This document shows positions 10,505 to 62,526 of a stretch of DNA of 64,000 bases, piece by piece. This DNA is from Actinomycetes bacterium. GTDB lineage: Bacteria > Actinomycetota > Acidimicrobiia > Acidimicrobiales > Acidimicrobiaceae. The DNA lies in assembly GCA_021841935.1 (NCBI GenBank), contig JAKCDL010000013.1:1-64000 (forward strand), read 5' to 3'. Position 1 is the first letter of the stretch; the number at the start of each line of letters is the position of its first letter. A program made the position numbers and the translations under genes. The notes beneath the pieces were generated by a model. That model was not told the origin of the DNA, did no database searches, and saw nothing but the letters and a program-made list of their open reading frames with translations.

Positions 10505-12562
10505 GTGGCTACTTCATTTTCCTATACGCCTCCAAAGGCGGTAAAAGAGCTTTTGGATCGGGCTAATCGCCTTGGAAGCGATCCAAAAAATACTAACTAC
10601 GCTGGAGGAAACGCCTCCGCCAAGGCTATGGTGCAAGATCCCTCAAATGGTCGCGACGTTGAGGTTATGTGGGTTAAAGGTTCCGGCGGCGATCTTGGAA
10701 CGTTAGACTTCAACGGCCTTGCTGCTTTGAAGGTCGATCAACTTCGTGCTCTAGAGGGAGTGTATCGCGGCTTAGAACACGAAGATGAGATGGTTGCAGC
10801 GTTTGATTTTTGTGCATTTGGCAAAGGTGGCGCTGCACCATCTATCGATACAGCGATGCACGGTCTCGTCGAATATGATCACGTGGACCATCTCCATCCC
10901 GATTCAGGCATAGCAATAGCTACTTCGGCAAATGGCCGAGAGTTGACAGAAAAGATCTTTGGAGATCGAGTCAAATTTGTTGACTGGAGAAGGCCCGGCT
11001 TCGAATTGGGTCGGGACATAGCAAAGATTGCTAAGGACTTCCCAAACTCCATTGGAGTGATTCTTGGTGGCCACGGAATAACCGCTTGGGGATCTACATC
11101 TAAGGAGTGCGAAGAAAACAGCCTCGAGATCATCGAGCTCGCTGCCAAGTACATAAGAGAGAACGGTAAGGAAGACGTCTTTGGAAGGATCGATCCCAAT
11201 TTTGCACCTCTTGAAAGAGATGCAAGGCGAAAGAGGGCTGCGGAACTTGCGCCGATCATTAGAGGTATGGCCTCCACTGACGTGCGAATGGTCGGTCACT
11301 TTAAAGATGATGACGTAGTTTTGGACTTCCTGTCGCGCGAAGGCCATCTTTCGGTCGCCTTACGAGGTACTAGCTGTCCTGATCACTTTCTTAGGACCAA
11401 GGTTCGACCTCTTATCGTCGATACGCCAGCTGATTCTCCACTTGAAGTCGTTGTGGCCCGACTAAAAGAGTTGCATTTAGAGTATCGGAAAGAGTACTCC
11501 GAGTACTACGGACGTTATGCCACCACTGACTCACCGCCAATGAGAGGTGCCGATCCAACAATATTTCTAGTTCCTGGAATTGGGATGTTTTCTTTCGGTA
11601 AGGACAGTCAAACAGCACGAGTTGCAGGCGAGTTTTACATCAATGCAATCAATGTAATTACCGGAGCTGAATCAATCTCAACGTATGCGCCAATTGACGA
11701 TTCGGAGAAGTTTAGGATCGAGTATTGGCAGCTAGAAGAGGATAAGCTCAAGAGGATGCCTAAGGCAAAGCCCCTTAGTGGAAAGGTAGCTTTAGTTACA
11801 GGGGGCGGTTCTGGAATTGGCGCTGCTACCGCACGACGACTGTCTGATGAAGGGGCGCATGTTATCGTTTGCGACCTTGACGCTAGTAGCGCCCGGGATG
11901 TTGCGGGCGCTATCGGAAGTAGCGATAAAGCTGTTGGAGTGGAGATAAACGTTGCCGATAGCCAGAGCATTGCGCAGGGGATGATTGAAGCAACTCTTAG
12001 CTACTGTGGCATCGACATTCTAGTGAATAATGCCGGTCTTTCAATTTCAAAGTCGCTCTTTGAAACGAGCGAAGAGGATTGGGATCGCCAGAGTAACGTC
12101 ATGGCTAAAGGCTCTTTTCTTATGTCAAAGGCTGTGGCGACGGTGATGGTGGAGCAGGGTATGGGTGGAGACATAGTTTATGTCGTCTCTAAGAACGCTG
12201 TCTTTGCTGGCCCTAATAATGTTGCTTACGGCGCTACAAAGGCAAATCAGGCCCATCAAGTAAGGCTTCTAGCAGCGGAACTTGGGCAATTCGGAGTACG
12301 TGTTAACGGAGTGAATCCCGACGGCGTCGTTAGGGGTTCAAAGATATTTTCAAGTGGATGGGGTGCCAAACGCGCAGCCGTTTATGGAGTTGATGAATCG
12401 GAGTTAGGAAAGTACTACGCCTCTAGAACTCTGCTAGGTAAGGAAGTTCTTCCGGAAAACATTGCGTCGGCAATCTTTGTGCTCGTGAGCGGAGATCTTG
12501 CACAGACCACAGGTACGCACATTCCGGTCGACTCTGGTGTAGCGAGTGCGTTTTTACGCTAG
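10505..12562 (+). CDS. rhaD: bifunctional rhamnulose-1-phosphate aldolase / lactaldehyde dehydrogenase
   Basis: A 685-residue two-domain enzyme. Residues 1-about 400 form a class II aldolase with the zinc motif HLH (129-131) and GGHG (His190). Residues about 425-685 are a short-chain dehydrogenase with TGGGSGIG (432-439), NNAG and catalytic YGATK (Tyr585, Lys589). In this family the aldolase splits L-rhamnulose-1-phosphate to dihydroxyacetone phosphate and L-lactaldehyde, and the dehydrogenase oxidises the latter to L-lactate. GTG at 10505 begins 2 bases after the isomerase stop and has GGGG 8 bases upstream; an upstream start at 10475 would overlap the isomerase. No rhamnulokinase lies before it: the kinase comes next, after a terminator. 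Confidence 0.9.
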   Translation: MATSFSYTPPKAVKELLDRANRLGSDPKNTNYAGGNASAKAMVQDPSNGRDVEVMWVKGSGGDLGTLDFNGLAALKVDQLRALEGVYRGLEHEDEMVAAFDFCAFGKGGAAPSIDTAMHGLVEYDHVDHLHPDSGIAIATSANGRELTEKIFGDRVKFVDWRRPGFELGRDIAKIAKDFPNSIGVILGGHGITAWGSTSKECEENSLEIIELAAKYIRENGKEDVFGRIDPNFAPLERDARRKRAAELAPIIRGMASTDVRMVGHFKDDDVVLDFLSREGHLSVALRGTSCPDHFLRTKVRPLIVDTPADSPLEVVVARLKELHLEYRKEYSEYYGRYATTDSPPMRGADPTIFLVPGIGMFSFGKDSQTARVAGEFYINAINVITGAESISTYAPIDDSEKFRIEYWQLEEDKLKRMPKAKPLSGKVALVTGGGSGIGAATARRLSDEGAHVIVCDLDASSARDVAGAIGSSDKAVGVEINVADSQSIAQGMIEATLSYCGIDILVNNAGLSISKSLFETSEEDWDRQSNVMAKGSFLMSKAVATVMVEQGMGGDIVYVVSKNAVFAGPNNVAYGATKANQAHQVRLLAAELGQFGVRVNGVNPDGVVRGSKIFSSGWGAKRAAVYGVDESELGKYYASRTLLGKEVLPENIASAIFVLVSGDLAQTTGTHIPVDSGVASAFLR

Positions 12563-55486: not shown

Positions 55487-55530
55487 AAGATGTCCCGCTG
55501 AAGGATAGATCCTCAGCGGGACATCTTTAT
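55487..55530. terminator. strong hairpin downstream of the DAB gene
   Basis: AAGATGTCCCGCTGA (55487-55501) and its exact complement (55513-55527) form a 15-bp stem. It lies about 100 bp beyond the stop of the leftward DAB gene; on the plus strand it is followed by TATG, so it may also end a rightward transcript from the gap. Confidence 0.8.
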
Positions 55531-55623: not shown

Positions 55624-58600
55624 CTAAAGCGGTTGTGCTATTCCAAAGGCCATATCGCTCAGGTCATCCTTCGTTCCGTTGATCAGGTTGTAGACGTCGT
55701 GGAATTTTCCATCTGAACTATCGAGAACGAGAATGTGCATCCATCTATTGGTGATGGTATCGCGAAGTAGCGGATTGGAGGTCACTATGGTCTTTACGGT
55801 CTCCTTATTCGCATAGATCAACCCAGTTAGACGAAGCGGAAGGTGGGCTAGCTCCCCTTGGGGGGTCATGTATGCTTGTCGAGCTAATCCTCCAATTAGA
55901 TCTCCGCTCGTTCCGGCGATTGCACCTAGGTTAGATACTGGATTGAGGAGTGTCTTATTCGATGTCAGGGTGCTGTCGTCGAGCGCTGCAAAGAGGTAGC
56001 TCTTTGAGATCATCTCGCCTACGACCATAGGAGCTAGCATTATCGACTCGAGAGCGGCTCCGTCTGGATCGAATCTTAGGTCATAGGATTGGAGGAAGGA
56101 CCTTCCCCCTAAGTCAAGACCGCGGGTCATTTCTCGCGGTGCAATTATGAAGCTAGCAGCATTTGCTAGACCCATCTCAGGCCAACCTTCAAACCACCAG
56201 TTGCTACGTGTGTCGCGATTGCGAGGTAAAGAAGCGATATTTGAAAACGTAGAAGTGGTATTCGATGATCGGTTTAGCTCTGACACTAGCCTTTGCAGGG
56301 CTATGGTATGGATAGTTTGGTCGTCGAGGGAAGATATTACTTCAATCTTGGCTTGGGTGGTATCGTGGGCGGCTGAGAAGAAGGTAGTGCTCTCGGGAAT
56401 TGAGATTCCATATGAAGCCATCTTTACCCGAACCTCCTTTTGATTTAGGAGCTTTGTGACCAACGTGGCATTTTCAGCTCCTGAATTTCCTCCACAAGCT
56501 CCGCATTGATATGCCATTCGTTGTAGTTGGTTGGCGTTCGTCGAATGGTGTCCCACGATCACAACCGAGTCTGCAAAGTCTTTTACTAATCCGATCGACT
56601 TTAGGGTTGTGGCTAATTGATAGGCCACATCTTCGATCTCGGCATCGTCCATCTTCTCCAACTCAATGCTCCGAAGGGCCGCAATGTCTGCATCCAATAC
56701 TGACTTGCTGTTTCGAAGTTTGGCGGCGAAGTTGGGGTAGTTGGTCTTTAGAAACGATGCGACACCCATATAACCACCTATAACTTCAGCGGTCACAAGT
56801 GACAGTGATGGAACGTTATCTAGAAGTTCGTAACTTGCTGCGATATCATTTAGGAACTCTTCGAAGCTAGGAACGACCCTCTTTATCCGCGCCCATCTCT
56901 GAGGGTCTAGCAGAACTGGTGCCCTAAGGGTTGAGGGAGTAGCTTCACGGACCCGAAATGGAAGACCGAAGAAGCCGGCTATCCCAAATGTGCGGACCTC
57001 AGAGAAGTTCTCTTCTAGATAACCTCGCATTGGTTCGCTTCTAACGTCGATGCAAAAGAGCATATCAATGCTGTTGGTTCGCTCTATTGGAGCGCTTGTT
57101 GCGTTGTTTGCAATCTTTGTTAGAAGTCCATTCTGGTAAGTAAGTTCGAGAGCGCGTTGGGCCACAATCCGTACTGCCTTTTCTCGGCGAGCTAAATCTA
57201 GGACTAGGTCGGATTCAAGAAGGAGCTTTGTGGCCTCGGATGTTTTTTCAGCTGGCTCAGCAACTTTATCTGATGATTTGATCGATGAGCCGACCAACTC
57301 CTCATAGTCAAAGTCGAGAACCATTGCGGTGAAGAGGAGCGCGAAGACCATGGATGCGACTCCTAGTTCACGGTGTCCCTCGCCAATTCCACCGTCGTTG
57401 GAGCGGTTCATTAGGGTGAGCCATCCGGGGATTAGATCGTTTGCAGTCTCGATCACCCTCTTCAAGTGATCTTCACCCTGTGCACCGATGACCGTTGCTA
57501 CTTGAGCGATCTTGTAGCTAACTATCAGTGCGATGTCGTCAGTGGTGACGCGCTTAGCATGAAAGTGTCGTATGAAGCCATGGCCTAATGTGAGCTCCAA
57601 GACTCTAAACGCGAGCTCCTTATCGTCTTTGATGACCTTTCCGCCTTCGATGATTGCATCCATGAGCAGAATCGAGACCTCTTCTAGGAGTTCATCGAAG
57701 CGGCCTTGATCCCTCCCAGCTTTGTGTTCCCAATGGATCTTTGAAGGTTGTGTTGTAAGTGCATCCAAGACCGCTGTCTCGAGGAGCCCTTTTGTCCTAA
57801 GTTGAGCCGGTACATGCTCGGGGTAGAGGGCAAGGGTATCTTCAGCTGCAGCGGCGATGAATTCGTTAGCGATCTCTTTGTTCGCGTAGAGCTTTGCCAA
57901 AGTGCTAAGCGATGGAAGTGGTAGGTCGCGATTTGGAGTGGTGATCTCGATAAAGTTCTTACCAATCTGAGATTGGTAAGGGTTTACCGCTACAAAGTTG
58001 ACTGTAGGTAGCGAGAGGGCAATCTCGGAGGCAATTTTTTCAACGTTGGCATCAACTATCGTCGCCGCCTTTGGATCGAGGCTCTCTAATGACTCGAGTT
58101 GAATCCTCGTCTTTTTGAGTTTGCGGCTGAAGGTGACGGTGTTGGAGGAGGCGGCATAGCTTCTGTGGATCAGGTGGCTAAGTGAAAGTTTGTCCACCGT
58201 CGATGAGCGCTTGATCATGATAGGTGCGATCAGCGAAAGTAGTGTTGGAATCCAAATTGCAAGGTGAACGTGGTCTAATGAGACGATGTGGCGAGCTGCA
58301 ACTTTGCTAACCGCTATGGCCGCCAACCATGGAGCGATCACGATAACCGACGCGGCCGCTCGGGCTGGAGTAGTTGCACCGATGCGATCGCTATGGCCAA
58401 AGCTAACATTTATAGCGACGTAGAGCGCGATGGCGAGACCTACTGTTTCAGGGATGAGTGAGCTCAGGTTGGCAAAGGTGATCGAGCCTGATAGAGACGT
58501 AGCTGTAACCATTACAGCGACTGAGATGAGCGCCGCAAAGATGGCCCTCGGGGTGTTTTGAACTTTGACTACCTTGTGGTTTGCGATCGAAGTTCGGTTC

Positions 58601-59523
58601 TTGGTTGCCTTTTCACTGATGAGCTCTGATTTATTGAATGGATCGCTTGGGGCGTCGTAGAGGAGGTAGCTCTTGAAGAGGCCGTGACCTACGGCGTGAA
58701 AGAGACCGAGGGTTGGTAGACCCGAGAGAATCTCTAAGACCATGAATGACATCTGGCCACACGTAGAGACCGCTAGGCGCCCCTTTGCATCTTTGGCGAA
58801 GGATTTAGCTAAGGAACTCCAGATGATGGTAGCTATGGCTAATACTACGACCGCAATGAGCACTCGGGTATCGATCATCTTGTAGGAGCCAAAGTAGATC
58901 AGTGCGATTGCTGGTGCATTTACGTATCCACCATGAATCATGACGCTAGCGGCGGTAGGGGCGTTGACACTTGACACCACCCACTTGCCAAATGGGAGCA
59001 GTCCGGCGCGACTAAAGGTCCATATGATCAATGCGATCTGGGTGCTCTTTTGATCTGGAGTGCTGATTGAGGCGGCTGCTGCTACCAGTAGGATCACGTC
59101 ACCTAGGTGAAGGTGCCAAGGATAACGTGGCTTTTTCGACCGATCTTGAAATGGTATGAGAAATGTTGCATACCCGAGAGCGGCGGTAGAGATAGTTGTT
59201 GCGATTGAAAATTGGAGTAGAGATGGCGCAAATACCATCGCATAGGTAGCGACGAAGAAGAGAGAAGACGATACTAGAAACTTTCTGAGGTTGGGCTCAT
59301 TTCGCATCGACCCGTCCGCATAGGCGTAGACGGTATTTGCAATGATTGTTACAAGGACTACAAAGAGAGCCCTCGAGATCGTGAAGGAAATTCCAAACAT
59401 AGGGTGCATTGCGCCGCTGTTCAAGGCTAGCTCTCGCCCCTTTGCTCCAGTCAATGAGAGCGCAGCGGTTATTGCAATGTATGGAAGTCCAATTGCCAAT
59501 GGTGTGTACTTTAGTGATCGCAT
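55624..59523 (-). CDS. dabB-dabA: single-chain DAB inorganic-carbon pump (DabB-DabA fusion)
   Basis: A 1299-residue protein. Residues 1-about 440 are a proton-antiporter-like membrane part (DabB/NuoL type, about 11-12 helices) with FGKWVVSSVNAPTAASVMIH and FHAVGHGLFKSYLLYD, the conserved Lys/His segments. Through a basic linker (about 465-490) it passes into DabA (DUF2309): VNFVAVNPYQSQIG, zinc site C824-x-D826-x-R828 in LFCIDVRSEP, His992 in VGHHSTNANQ, Cys1007 in CGACGGNSGAENA, and NWWFEGWPEMGLA. In known systems DabB and DabA are separate proteins that together drive CO2 hydration with ion flow. Start is taken at ATG 59523; GTG 59595 would add 24 residues encoded by promoter-like AT-rich DNA. 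No other carbon-fixation gene is in the window. Confidence 0.88.
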   Translation of the reverse strand: MRSLKYTPLAIGLPYIAITAALSLTGAKGRELALNSGAMHPMFGISFTISRALFVVLVTIIANTVYAYADGSMRNEPNLRKFLVSSSLFFVATYAMVFAPSLLQFSIATTISTAALGYATFLIPFQDRSKKPRYPWHLHLGDVILLVAAAASISTPDQKSTQIALIIWTFSRAGLLPFGKWVVSSVNAPTAASVMIHGGYVNAPAIALIYFGSYKMIDTRVLIAVVVLAIATIIWSSLAKSFAKDAKGRLAVSTCGQMSFMVLEILSGLPTLGLFHAVGHGLFKSYLLYDAPSDPFNKSELISEKATKNRTSIANHKVVKVQNTPRAIFAALISVAVMVTATSLSGSITFANLSSLIPETVGLAIALYVAINVSFGHSDRIGATTPARAAASVIVIAPWLAAIAVSKVAARHIVSLDHVHLAIWIPTLLSLIAPIMIKRSSTVDKLSLSHLIHRSYAASSNTVTFSRKLKKTRIQLESLESLDPKAATIVDANVEKIASEIALSLPTVNFVAVNPYQSQIGKNFIEITTPNRDLPLPSLSTLAKLYANKEIANEFIAAAAEDTLALYPEHVPAQLRTKGLLETAVLDALTTQPSKIHWEHKAGRDQGRFDELLEEVSILLMDAIIEGGKVIKDDKELAFRVLELTLGHGFIRHFHAKRVTTDDIALIVSYKIAQVATVIGAQGEDHLKRVIETANDLIPGWLTLMNRSNDGGIGEGHRELGVASMVFALLFTAMVLDFDYEELVGSSIKSSDKVAEPAEKTSEATKLLLESDLVLDLARREKAVRIVAQRALELTYQNGLLTKIANNATSAPIERTNSIDMLFCIDVRSEPMRGYLEENFSEVRTFGIAGFFGLPFRVREATPSTLRAPVLLDPQRWARIKRVVPSFEEFLNDIAASYELLDNVPSLSLVTAEVIGGYMGVASFLKTNYPNFAAKLRNSKSVLDADIAALRSIELEKMDDAEIEDVAYQLATTLKSIGLVKDFADSVVIVGHHSTNANQLQRMAYQCGACGGNSGAENATLVTKLLNQKEVRVKMASYGISIPESTTFFSAAHDTTQAKIEVISSLDDQTIHTIALQRLVSELNRSSNTTSTFSNIASLPRNRDTRSNWWFEGWPEMGLANAASFIIAPREMTRGLDLGGRSFLQSYDLRFDPDGAALESIMLAPMVVGEMISKSYLFAALDDSTLTSNKTLLNPVSNLGAIAGTSGDLIGGLARQAYMTPQGELAHLPLRLTGLIYANKETVKTIVTSNPLLRDTITNRWMHILVLDSSDGKFHDVYNLINGTKDDLSDMAFGIAQPL

Positions 59524-59709
59524 GCTTAAACAATATAAGAAAAACTTTTCATATGTAGCAAATATATGCAAAATTTTTCGTATGAAATTAGTCACAGCGC
59601 CATTCAGCTAAAAGATCCTCGTTTTTATTTGAGAATAAGTACTTCGGAATACGACAAGAGCGTGGCGATTTGGCAATAGTTCTCCGATGGTCTAGGTAGT
59701 CTCGTAATC

Positions 59710-60438
59710 ATGGATCATCACGGCAGAACAGAGCGCTTAGAACTCGAAGATGCGAGTATCAGAAAATTCCAGGCAACTGTATTGGAGGCATCGGAAGAGG
59801 GGATCGTACTTGATAGATCCGCCTTCTATCCTGGCGGTGGAGGACAACCACCAGACTTCGGTGCGCTTAGCTTCAATGGTAACTTCTGCCGAATAGTGGG
59901 GGTACGAAAGGGCGAAGACCTCTTTCTGGTACCGGAAGAGGGAGATCCACTCCCATCTGCTGGAAGTGTCGTTGAGGGCATAGTTGACGATGAGCGCCGC
60001 TTTCAATTGATGCGCACTCACAGCGCACTGCATCTCCTGTCGGGAGTTGTATTTAGAGATTTCGGAGCACTCGTTACGGGTGGAAATATGGAACCCCTTT
60101 CTGCACGCCTTGACTTCAACCTCGGAGAAGTTCCTCCTGGATTCAAAGATACGCTTGATGAACTCTGTAACGTCGAGGTAGATTCAAATAGAGCTATCAC
60201 CACATATAGCCTCCCGCGGGATGAAGCATTTGCCATTCCCGACATAATCAGGACAGCAACCAACCTGTTGCCTGATGATCTCGAAATAGTTCGAATTGTT
60301 GATATCAATGGCCTCGACGTTCAAGCTGATGGTGGCACTCACGTCTCGTCGACTTCGCAGATTAAGCGGATGCGAGTTGCGAAAGTTGAAAATAAAGGCA
60401 AGGGGTTTCGAAGGGTGAAGATCGAATTAGAGAGGTGA
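59710..60438 (+). CDS. alaX: AlaX-type alanyl-tRNA editing protein
   Basis: A 242-residue free-standing editing protein related to the AlaRS editing domain. The N-terminal beta-barrel has AFYPGGGGQPPDFGAL; the zinc site has HSALHLL (two His) and ADGGTHVSSTSQI (third His; the usual Cys is Asp as in many AlaX proteins). It hydrolyses mischarged Ser-tRNA(Ala) or Gly-tRNA(Ala). It starts 187 bp from the divergent DAB gene, ATG without a strong ribosome site, so co-regulation is possible but unproven. Confidence 0.88.
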   Translation: MDHHGRTERLELEDASIRKFQATVLEASEEGIVLDRSAFYPGGGGQPPDFGALSFNGNFCRIVGVRKGEDLFLVPEEGDPLPSAGSVVEGIVDDERRFQLMRTHSALHLLSGVVFRDFGALVTGGNMEPLSARLDFNLGEVPPGFKDTLDELCNVEVDSNRAITTYSLPRDEAFAIPDIIRTATNLLPDDLEIVRIVDINGLDVQADGGTHVSSTSQIKRMRVAKVENKGKGFRRVKIELER

Positions 60439-60978
60439 CGGTGGCTTAGGCGAGGAATTCTCCTCGAGCTATCTGAACCTTATATTCATCTATTGATATG
60501 AACTTAGTATTTAGGTGTGCGACCTATTGTCAAGTGCGACTTAAATACCTAGGCGACGCTGTCGGCACGCCTTAGAGTGACTCTAGAGCTTCAAGGTTTG
60601 CATAAACCAACTTCTAATAGTCAGTCTCTGCCGATTCAAGACTTGGAGGTCTTGTGCTCTTCTTTCAATCAAAAGAGGCTAATTAGCAATTGTCCAACCC
60701 CAAGAAGTCACAGTGTGCTTTCGTTGATCGAGTAGTTCTAGGTCGTTTTATTTTGGGGACAATTCTCATTTTGCTGACTTTAGGTCGTCCGGATGGCAGA
60801 GCAAAGGTTGTGAAGTTGCGCGATATGTACTTCAATGGTTTTGGTCATTGGCTCGAAAAGGTGCTTGGATCTTTAAAGCTCAGCTATCTAGAGTAGGCAA
60901 CAGCGTTTCGAGGTGACTTTGAGGCTGATTGCACGGCGAGATCGACTCGTCCTCGAACAACAGCGAAAGGGTATTAGC
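60439..60978. other. intergenic region before the paired lipoproteins
   Basis: No gene is supported. A 68-codon frame (60690-60896) has a TTG start with no ribosome site and no known family, and is left out. Confidence 0.4.
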
Positions 60979-61572
60979 ATGTCTTTTAGAGCTAGTGCTG
61001 CGATCAACGAGTTAAGTATTCGAAGACCTCTTCAAATCGCGTTGATTTCCATGGGGTTTATTACCTCAAGTTGTGGTGGTGCTGCGGTTGGTAGCACGAG
61101 TACAACTTCCCAAACAACAGTAAAAGTTAAAACCACATACGTTACAACTTCGATACCCCCTGTAACAACGACAACTTCACCGGCGGTCTCGGCCACCTCC
61201 CCTCAGAGCGTACCAGCAACACCAACCTTGGGGTTGAGCAATATTTATTCCGGTGGATTAGGGTTTGGAGAGGTTGAGCCAACGAAGATATATCTCGGTG
61301 GTGATCCGACCGGACTACTGTCCAAAGTCCAATGGAGCACTTGGGGAGGGAGTAGCGCGAACGGGGTGGGAGTCGGAGAGTATGTAGGCCCTAGCCAAGT
61401 TGTGGCGCAGGGAAAGCTGGAGACTGCCACTGTTGTAGCCTTCGATCTTGGAAGCTGCAACGGTATTTACGCGTACCAGAAAGTTGAGTGGTACTTTCCC
61501 GGTGAGGGAGAGACGTTCAACCCGGCGCACGCAATTACGACCTGCCTCTTCTTTGGGCAACCTCCTTCGTAA
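60979..61572 (+). CDS. small lipoprotein of unknown function, copy 1
   Basis: A 197-residue secreted protein. The basic N-terminus and hydrophobic segment end in a lipobox (ITSSC), followed by a Ser/Thr/Val/Pro-rich tether (about 55 residues). The globular C-terminal part has LGLSNIYSGGLGFGEVEP, LGGDPTG, WSTWGGSSANGVG, LGSCNG and a Cys near the end. ATG at 60979 has GAAAGGG 8 bases upstream; an in-frame start at 60913 is less likely. It is paralogous to the next gene. Confidence 0.75.
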   Translation: MSFRASAAINELSIRRPLQIALISMGFITSSCGGAAVGSTSTTSQTTVKVKTTYVTTSIPPVTTTTSPAVSATSPQSVPATPTLGLSNIYSGGLGFGEVEPTKIYLGGDPTGLLSKVQWSTWGGSSANGVGVGEYVGPSQVVAQGKLETATVVAFDLGSCNGIYAYQKVEWYFPGEGETFNPAHAITTCLFFGQPPS

Positions 61573-61731
61573 TCAAAAGCTATATCCAACTTGGAGATTT
61601 CTCTAGCGAGCTCTAGATGTTTCCTTCCTGATCCTGATTGACGCAGTGTTTTTGTTGAAGTTTCATGCTTGCATCTTCAACTTTGAATATTTTATTGCCG
61701 AAAGCTAATCGGGTAGGTTAAGGACGGAATC

Positions 61732-62526
61732 TTGGCTCAAGTTAAATTTCTAGAAAGAGGCGCCAAAAGCAAGGTGCCAATTGCCGCAGTTTTGTTCGGG
61801 TTTCCCTTGGTATCGTGTGGCTTTTCTTCTGGCGTTCATTCAGTGGGAAAGAGTACCTTTTCAACGCCGACGACACTACCGGTGATCGTCTTGCCTTCGG
61901 CAGCTAATACTCCTCAGGGACAGGCCTTGCCCACTCAACAAGCCAGCACTGTTCAACAAGCCAGCACTGTTCAGCGGGGCCAGGGGCAACTGACACCGCA
62001 AAGCTCCTCTGGTCAGCCATCCTCCCAGCTAGCTCCCCTTTCTTCAAGTGTCCAAGGTGCAACCGCAACTGTGTCGGCGGCATCGTCCTTTCCTTCAACA
62101 TCGACCACCACACCCCCAAGTACAGTTTCGCCGACTACCACCACTCAAACTTCACCTTCCACAACAACGGTGCTCTCTGGATCAGCGCTCCCAACTCTAG
62201 GACTGTCAGGAACTTACGTTGGAGGGATGGGCTTTGGAGCAGTTGAGCCCTTGACGATCGCTCTTGGTGGCGATCCAACAGGCGTCATCTCTTCGGTAGC
62301 GTGGAGCTCATGGGGTGATTCAAGTGCCGTTGGTAGCGGGATCGCAGCTTATGTCGCGCCCGGTCAAGCAGACGCGACAGCTGTCAAAGCAACTGCAGTG
62401 GTAGTCGCTACTAACCTTGGGAGCTGTGGAGGGCAGATCGTTTACCAAGATATTCTTTGGTACTTCCCGCAATTTGGCCAGAGCAAAAGTACGGCTCACG
62501 AAATTCCAACTTGTCCCATTAGCTAG
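61732..62526 (+). CDS. small lipoprotein of unknown function, copy 2
   Basis: A 264-residue paralogue of the preceding gene with the same layout: lipobox (PLVSC), a much longer Gln/Ser/Thr/Pro tether (about 130 residues), then LGLSGTYVGGMGFGAVEP, LGGDPTG, WSSWGDSSAVGSG, LGSCGG and WYFP. Two conserved cysteines could form a disulfide. Similar domains with a SWGxSSAxGxG core occur in other actinobacterial secreted proteins, from memory. TTG at 61732 has AAGGA 7 bases upstream. Cell-wall exposed by inference; function unknown. Confidence 0.75.
   Translation: MAQVKFLERGAKSKVPIAAVLFGFPLVSCGFSSGVHSVGKSTFSTPTTLPVIVLPSAANTPQGQALPTQQASTVQQASTVQRGQGQLTPQSSSGQPSSQLAPLSSSVQGATATVSAASSFPSTSTTTPPSTVSPTTTTQTSPSTTTVLSGSALPTLGLSGTYVGGMGFGAVEPLTIALGGDPTGVISSVAWSSWGDSSAVGSGIAAYVAPGQADATAVKATAVVVATNLGSCGGQIVYQDILWYFPQFGQSKSTAHEIPTCPIS
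61936..61971 (+). repeat. 18-bp tandem duplication in the lipoprotein tether
   Basis: CAACAAGCCAGCACTGTT occurs twice in succession (61936-61953, 61954-61971), encoding QQASTV twice. It lies in the disordered tether of the second lipoprotein. Confidence 0.9.

Follow-up and report, generated by a model that had tools for sequence, protein, structure and literature searches.

The window, the whole stretch of 64,000 nucleotides that was analysed, contains a gene in which both parts of the DAB carbon pump appear to be encoded as one polypeptide (Table 1). This raises the questions of whether the fusion is real, whether it is new and what it does for the cell. An earlier note on this DNA had read the gene as a membrane DabB part that continues in frame into a complete DabA, and this reading holds. 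The frame of 1299 codons on the reverse strand is open from 59523 to the end of the stop codon at 55624, with NuoL and DabB matches in its N-terminal part and the Pfam DabA profile (PF10070) behind them. PF10070 spans residues 494-1262 in the 1299-aa numbering and is covered from position 1 to 747 with 396.6 bits (cut-off of 25 bits), so the DabA part is complete. The DabA half also matches DabA2 of the solved DAB2 complex (9rd0_A) with an E-value of 6e-62. The DabB half matches NuoL-type models (NADH-quinone oxidoreductase subunit L) with an E-value of 6e-18, which is well under the equivalog cut-offs, and DabB2 (9rd0_B) with an E-value of 9e-11; hhalign against a profile of 15 separate DabBs gave a probability of 99.7%. 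The Pfam profile search found no match of the fusion protein to the antiporter family PF00361; therefore, the DabB half is divergent. AlphaFold models of residues 101-1299, alone and with two close relatives, have pLDDT values of 36 and 32 and are unusable as evidence on the fold.

Table 1. Features of the fusion gene and its flanks, in positions of the window
Feature	Position	Strand	Reading and basis
dabB-dabA fusion gene	55624..59523	(-)	ATG start at 59523, 1299 aa; uninterrupted frame, PF10070, orthologues in G008 and G011
DabB half, residues ~1-476	58096..59523	(-)	NuoL-like proton-conducting membrane domain, from homology; ~12 hydrophobic segments (hydropathy)
Variable linker, residues ~477-493	58045..58095	(-)	Joins the DabB end to the DabA start; low identity among three fusions
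DabA half, residues ~494-1299	55624..58044	(-)	Helical N-terminal domain, then two beta-CA-like domains; PF10070 full profile, DabA2 match
C824-I-D826-V-R828, zinc ligand and Asp-Arg dyad	57040..57054	(-)	Aligned with DabA2 C351/D353/R355
H992 to C1007, remaining zinc ligands	56503..56550	(-)	Aligned with DabA2 H524/C539
E913, membrane-inserting finger	56785..56787	(-)	Aligned with DabA2 E444
Conserved upstream block, 72 nt	59524..59595	(-)	Likely promoter/operator, non-coding; substitutions even over codon positions (three genomes)
Hairpin between convergent genes	55487..55527	(-)	Likely transcription terminator; fold energy and hairpins at the same place in relatives

The same fusion is found in two more metagenome-assembled genomes, G008 (JAJZFV010000048.1) and G011 (JAKAZZ010000022.1), and whole-protein identity among the three is 67-73%. 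These two were the only close orthologues in the scan of the genome collection. The viral-contig scan found no relative of the fusion, and in the plasmid records no single place covered 80% of the query. The whole gene has a dN/dS of 0.07-0.12 among the three fusion genomes, with synonymous sites near saturation, and is therefore under purifying selection. The two halves have similar ratios where computable; saturated synonymous change leaves the DabB ratio undefined in two of the three pairs. In the linker region, identity among the three fusions drops to 36-47%, versus 67-76% elsewhere, as would be expected of a linker.

The residues associated with catalysis are retained. The earlier note had listed C824, D826, H992 and C1007 as four zinc-site residues, together with R828. 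All five are present, but the ligands number three: DabA2 binds zinc through C351, H524 and C539 only, and D353, to which D826 corresponds, pairs with R355 in a dyad that keeps the zinc water in place (PMC13144422). The C824/D826/R828 site is invariant in all fusions and in 43 other DabAs. The finger glutamate E913 occurs in all three fusions; its DabA2 counterpart E444 is essential in vivo (PMC13144422). In the DabB half, S193, H197, K247, S253, H276, H280 and K284 align with DabB2 S256, H260, K310, S316, H339, H343 and K347. All seven of these proton-path residues are kept in three of three fusions, even though identity to other DABs is at most 33% for DabA and at most 24% for DabB, and mutation has shown their importance in DAB2 (PMC13144422). 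Further positions kept are those of DabA2 S356, A376, H585 and L658 and DabB2 D185. Of 71 highly conserved DabA columns, 61 are retained by every one of the three fusions, as are 16 of 23 DabB columns. The most notable residue change is at the position of DabA2 Asp590, where the three fusions all have Ala and 43/43 other DabAs have Asp or Glu. Asp590 is said to hold a water in a proposed proton relay from the zinc water (PMC13144422). It is commonly conserved but is not known from mutation to be essential; hence, it is not treated as defining. The earlier note had raised the possibility of altered coupling; this is a conjecture, for which the Asp590 to Ala change may be the best handle.

With this architecture and residue set, the protein is probably a single-chain DAB, that is, a vectorial carbonic anhydrase driven by the proton motive force. 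The mechanism and the physiological role are carried over from DAB2. The chain would begin as a DabB-type membrane proton conductor and run on covalently as a DabA-type latent beta-carbonic anhydrase. Protons would flow inward through the DabB half, with the finger glutamate of DabA completing the periplasmic half-channel, and by homology to DAB2 this flow would open and activate the zinc site. Entering CO2 would then be hydrated one way to bicarbonate at the cytoplasmic zinc site. The bicarbonate would feed the carboxylations of the cell, most likely including the Calvin cycle via re-supply of CO2. The fusion most likely fixes the stoichiometry at 1:1 and keeps the peripheral half attached, although the chemistry would not need it. 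Such an attachment fits the instability of wild-type two-chain DAB2, which falls apart on purification (PMC13144422).

The fusion is the only DAB found in the window genome. The earlier note had suggested anaplerotic bicarbonate supply in acid habitats as its job. As for the acid setting, only kinship with the acidophile Acidimicrobium ferrooxidans bears on it. A form I RuBisCO operon with the small subunit, a CbbX-like ATPase, transketolase and FBPase is located on another contig, so the gene is indeed away from the carbon-fixation genes. No match to a carboxysome shell was found in the window genome (completeness 87%). The genome also has three beta-CA genes, which carry the C-x-D-x-R and H-x-x-C motifs; two of the three are identical. 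The two genes for the identical protein lie 6.5 kb apart (L128:5440-5739 and 11940-12239, contig C15 of the window genome), which may be due to recent duplication or to the assembly. Across the family, DAB goes together with RuBisCO (19/23 versus 8/19, p 0.01, uncorrected for relatedness), and genomes with DAB tend to lack beta-CA (6/23 versus 11/19, p 0.06, likewise uncorrected). Three separate-DAB genomes (G022, G023 and G030) have no RuBisCO match, which suggests that a DAB may also serve without RuBisCO.

The reading that survives best beside autotrophic supply is that the protein provides bicarbonate mainly for anaplerotic carboxylation. The gene does not stand beside carbon-fixation genes, and the non-autotroph Staphylococcus aureus needs MpsAB to grow in air (PMC6689103). 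However, the RuBisCO operon carries transketolase and FBPase, and with the beta-CAs also present a purely anaplerotic role is not favoured; the beta-CA genes also mean that the pump may not be the sole source of bicarbonate. These genes and the co-occurrence of DAB with RuBisCO make autotrophic carbon supply the likelier main job. Anaplerosis as the main job is therefore unlikely, but it is possible as a second one, so the anaplerotic role is weakened and a mixed role may apply.

A still less probable reading is that the protein is a degenerate or repurposed DAB in which proton flow is uncoupled from CO2 hydration; it might, for instance, act as a leaky anhydrase or conduct ions only. In the two trees, built on the DabA core and on DabB, the stems of the window lineage are 2.55 and 3.25 changes per site, and both trees put this lineage at the greatest median distance from all the rest; it is the most divergent lineage sampled. 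With stems this long in both halves, the protein could have changed its function. The fusion has also diverged more quickly than the genes around it (67% identity versus 80-92% for MCP, MFS and AlaX), it has the Asp590 to Ala change, and beta-CA is present in 3/3 fused genomes, which are sisters, versus 3/19 separate-DAB genomes of the family. Against degeneration, the zinc ligands, the dyad, the finger glutamate and the proton-path residues are all kept, and dN/dS is about 0.1. A working single-chain DAB thus remains the preferred reading.

Genome samples of the family (42), the phylum (396) and the class (395) were surveyed; the samples overlap. True fusions occur in these samples only in A. 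ferrooxidans (G001) and in the window lineage, which comprises three genomes. A detailed reading of 42 further loci showed dabB and dabA in two frames of their own, as a rule next to each other or sharing a few bases; one of the 42 ends before dabB. Congeners of the window genome carry separate DABs in place of the fusion. Many DabA frames of 1100-1450 aa were considered as fusions and rejected, since they are overlapping frames or long-insert DabAs beside a separate dabB. L037-L042 and L044 (e.g. L040:1342-5313), from several other actinomycetotal families, have a DabA of about 1200 codons for a profile of 747 positions. They seem to contain a long insert of about 400 aa and have a separate downstream dabB.

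Both trees nest the A. ferrooxidans halves among separate DABs, in a clade distant from the window lineage; these halves are 57% identical to the separate DAB of G032. Forcing all fusions together was rejected for the DabA core (AU p 0.000221) and for DabB (AU p 0.00622). Therefore, the two fusions are independent. Owing to the long branches, the placement of an exact sister to the window lineage is uncertain. Descent of both from one old single-chain DAB family is very improbable: the two belong to the same family in the genome set, have the same order of halves and are both single-chain, but the position of the A. ferrooxidans halves and the AU results (p 0.0002 and 0.006 under the model used, with long branches as a caveat) argue against it. 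An assembly or sequencing artefact that joined two adjacent genes through a missed stop or frameshift is scarcely credible, since, although canonical dabB and dabA lie next to each other, often sharing a few bases, so that one error could join them, three separately assembled genomes that differ at nearly saturated synonymous sites have the same open junction, with no stop or frameshift there (about 58.0-58.2 kb in the window).

The start of the gene is supported by the DNA in front of it. The 72 nt upstream of ATG 59523 are conserved in the three genomes as DNA and without codon-position bias; this supports the ATG as the start and makes the block look regulatory. A start at GTG 59595 is ruled out on the same ground. 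The block begins abruptly at GTGAC-AATTTCATACG, directly adjoins the fusion and contains a weak -10-like TATATT. It is possibly an operator, or a promoter with a very short leader. The note had also given the gene its own hairpin and described it as standing alone, and both points are borne out. The 3' hairpin is stable (-30.9 kcal/mol, z -7.3), and hairpins of unrelated sequence can be read at the same spot beyond the stop in G008 and G011, which is consistent with a terminator. The neighbours of the gene are an MFS gene, convergent with it, and a divergently oriented alaX. All three fusion genomes share this neighbourhood, which consists of an MCP-like gene, the convergent MFS transporter, the fusion and the divergent alaX. 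The adjoining gene at 59710-60438 encodes a free-standing alanyl-tRNA editing protein of the AlaXM type and is 87% identical in the relatives. Farther along (60913-62526) are two tandem paralogous Ser/Thr-rich proteins, apparently secreted; G008 and G011 have relatives of these at the corresponding position.

Published work contradicts the claim that known DABs always consist of separate genes. Fan et al. (2019) reported a single fused gene for mpsA and mpsB in A. ferrooxidans (PMC6689103). Lo et al. (2026) modelled a functional DabB2-DabA2 fusion on that design for cryo-EM; growth yield was not significantly affected, and the structure was solved (PMC13144422). With these natural and engineered precedents, most of the claimed novelty falls. 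Fusions are still not common, since the actinomycetotal genomes surveyed hold only two such lineages. What is new is another single-chain DAB, one that evolved separately and is very divergent.

DAB pumps are candidates for carbon-uptake engineering, and natural single-chain DABs that have arisen twice in one family show that fusion is a viable state in nature. The window fusion keeps the catalytic set at an identity to other DABs of no more than 33%, which helps to tell residues essential for coupling from those that are merely conserved. A more speculative and rather unlikely proposal is that the independent fusion, the lost Asp590 relay and the very rapid divergence are signs of a single-chain DAB that differs in function, has altered coupling and operates in an autotroph next to a cytoplasmic beta-CA, and that covalent DABs have been repeatedly selected in this family.

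The nearest known system is the A. ferrooxidans fusion, which likewise has DabB followed by DabA in one open frame, comes from the same actinomycetotal family in the genome set, retains the zinc site and proton-path residues and occurs with RuBisCO. It differs from the window fusion in its separate origin and in its ordinary halves (57% to separate relatives, DabA 889 bits), whereas the window lineage is extremely divergent (DabA 398 bits). It has Glu where the window fusion has Ala at the Asp590 position, and its genome has no Pro_CA match, versus three in the window genome. S. aureus MpsAB has homologous DabB and DabA parts (at the family level, from the literature) but is encoded by two separate genes, and it has been argued to use sodium (PMC13144422). 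DAB2 of Halothiobacillus neapolitanus, solved as an engineered B-A fusion (PDB 9rd0), has the same two parts in the same order and the same catalytic, dyad, finger and proton-path residues. Natural DAB2 consists of two chains, unlike the single chain of the window, and its DabB is longer (551 aa versus ~480 aa for the window half). DabB2 Arg182 and Lys235 are replaced by His and Arg in the window fusion, at positions that are both variable in the family, and DabA2 Asp590 is replaced by Ala.
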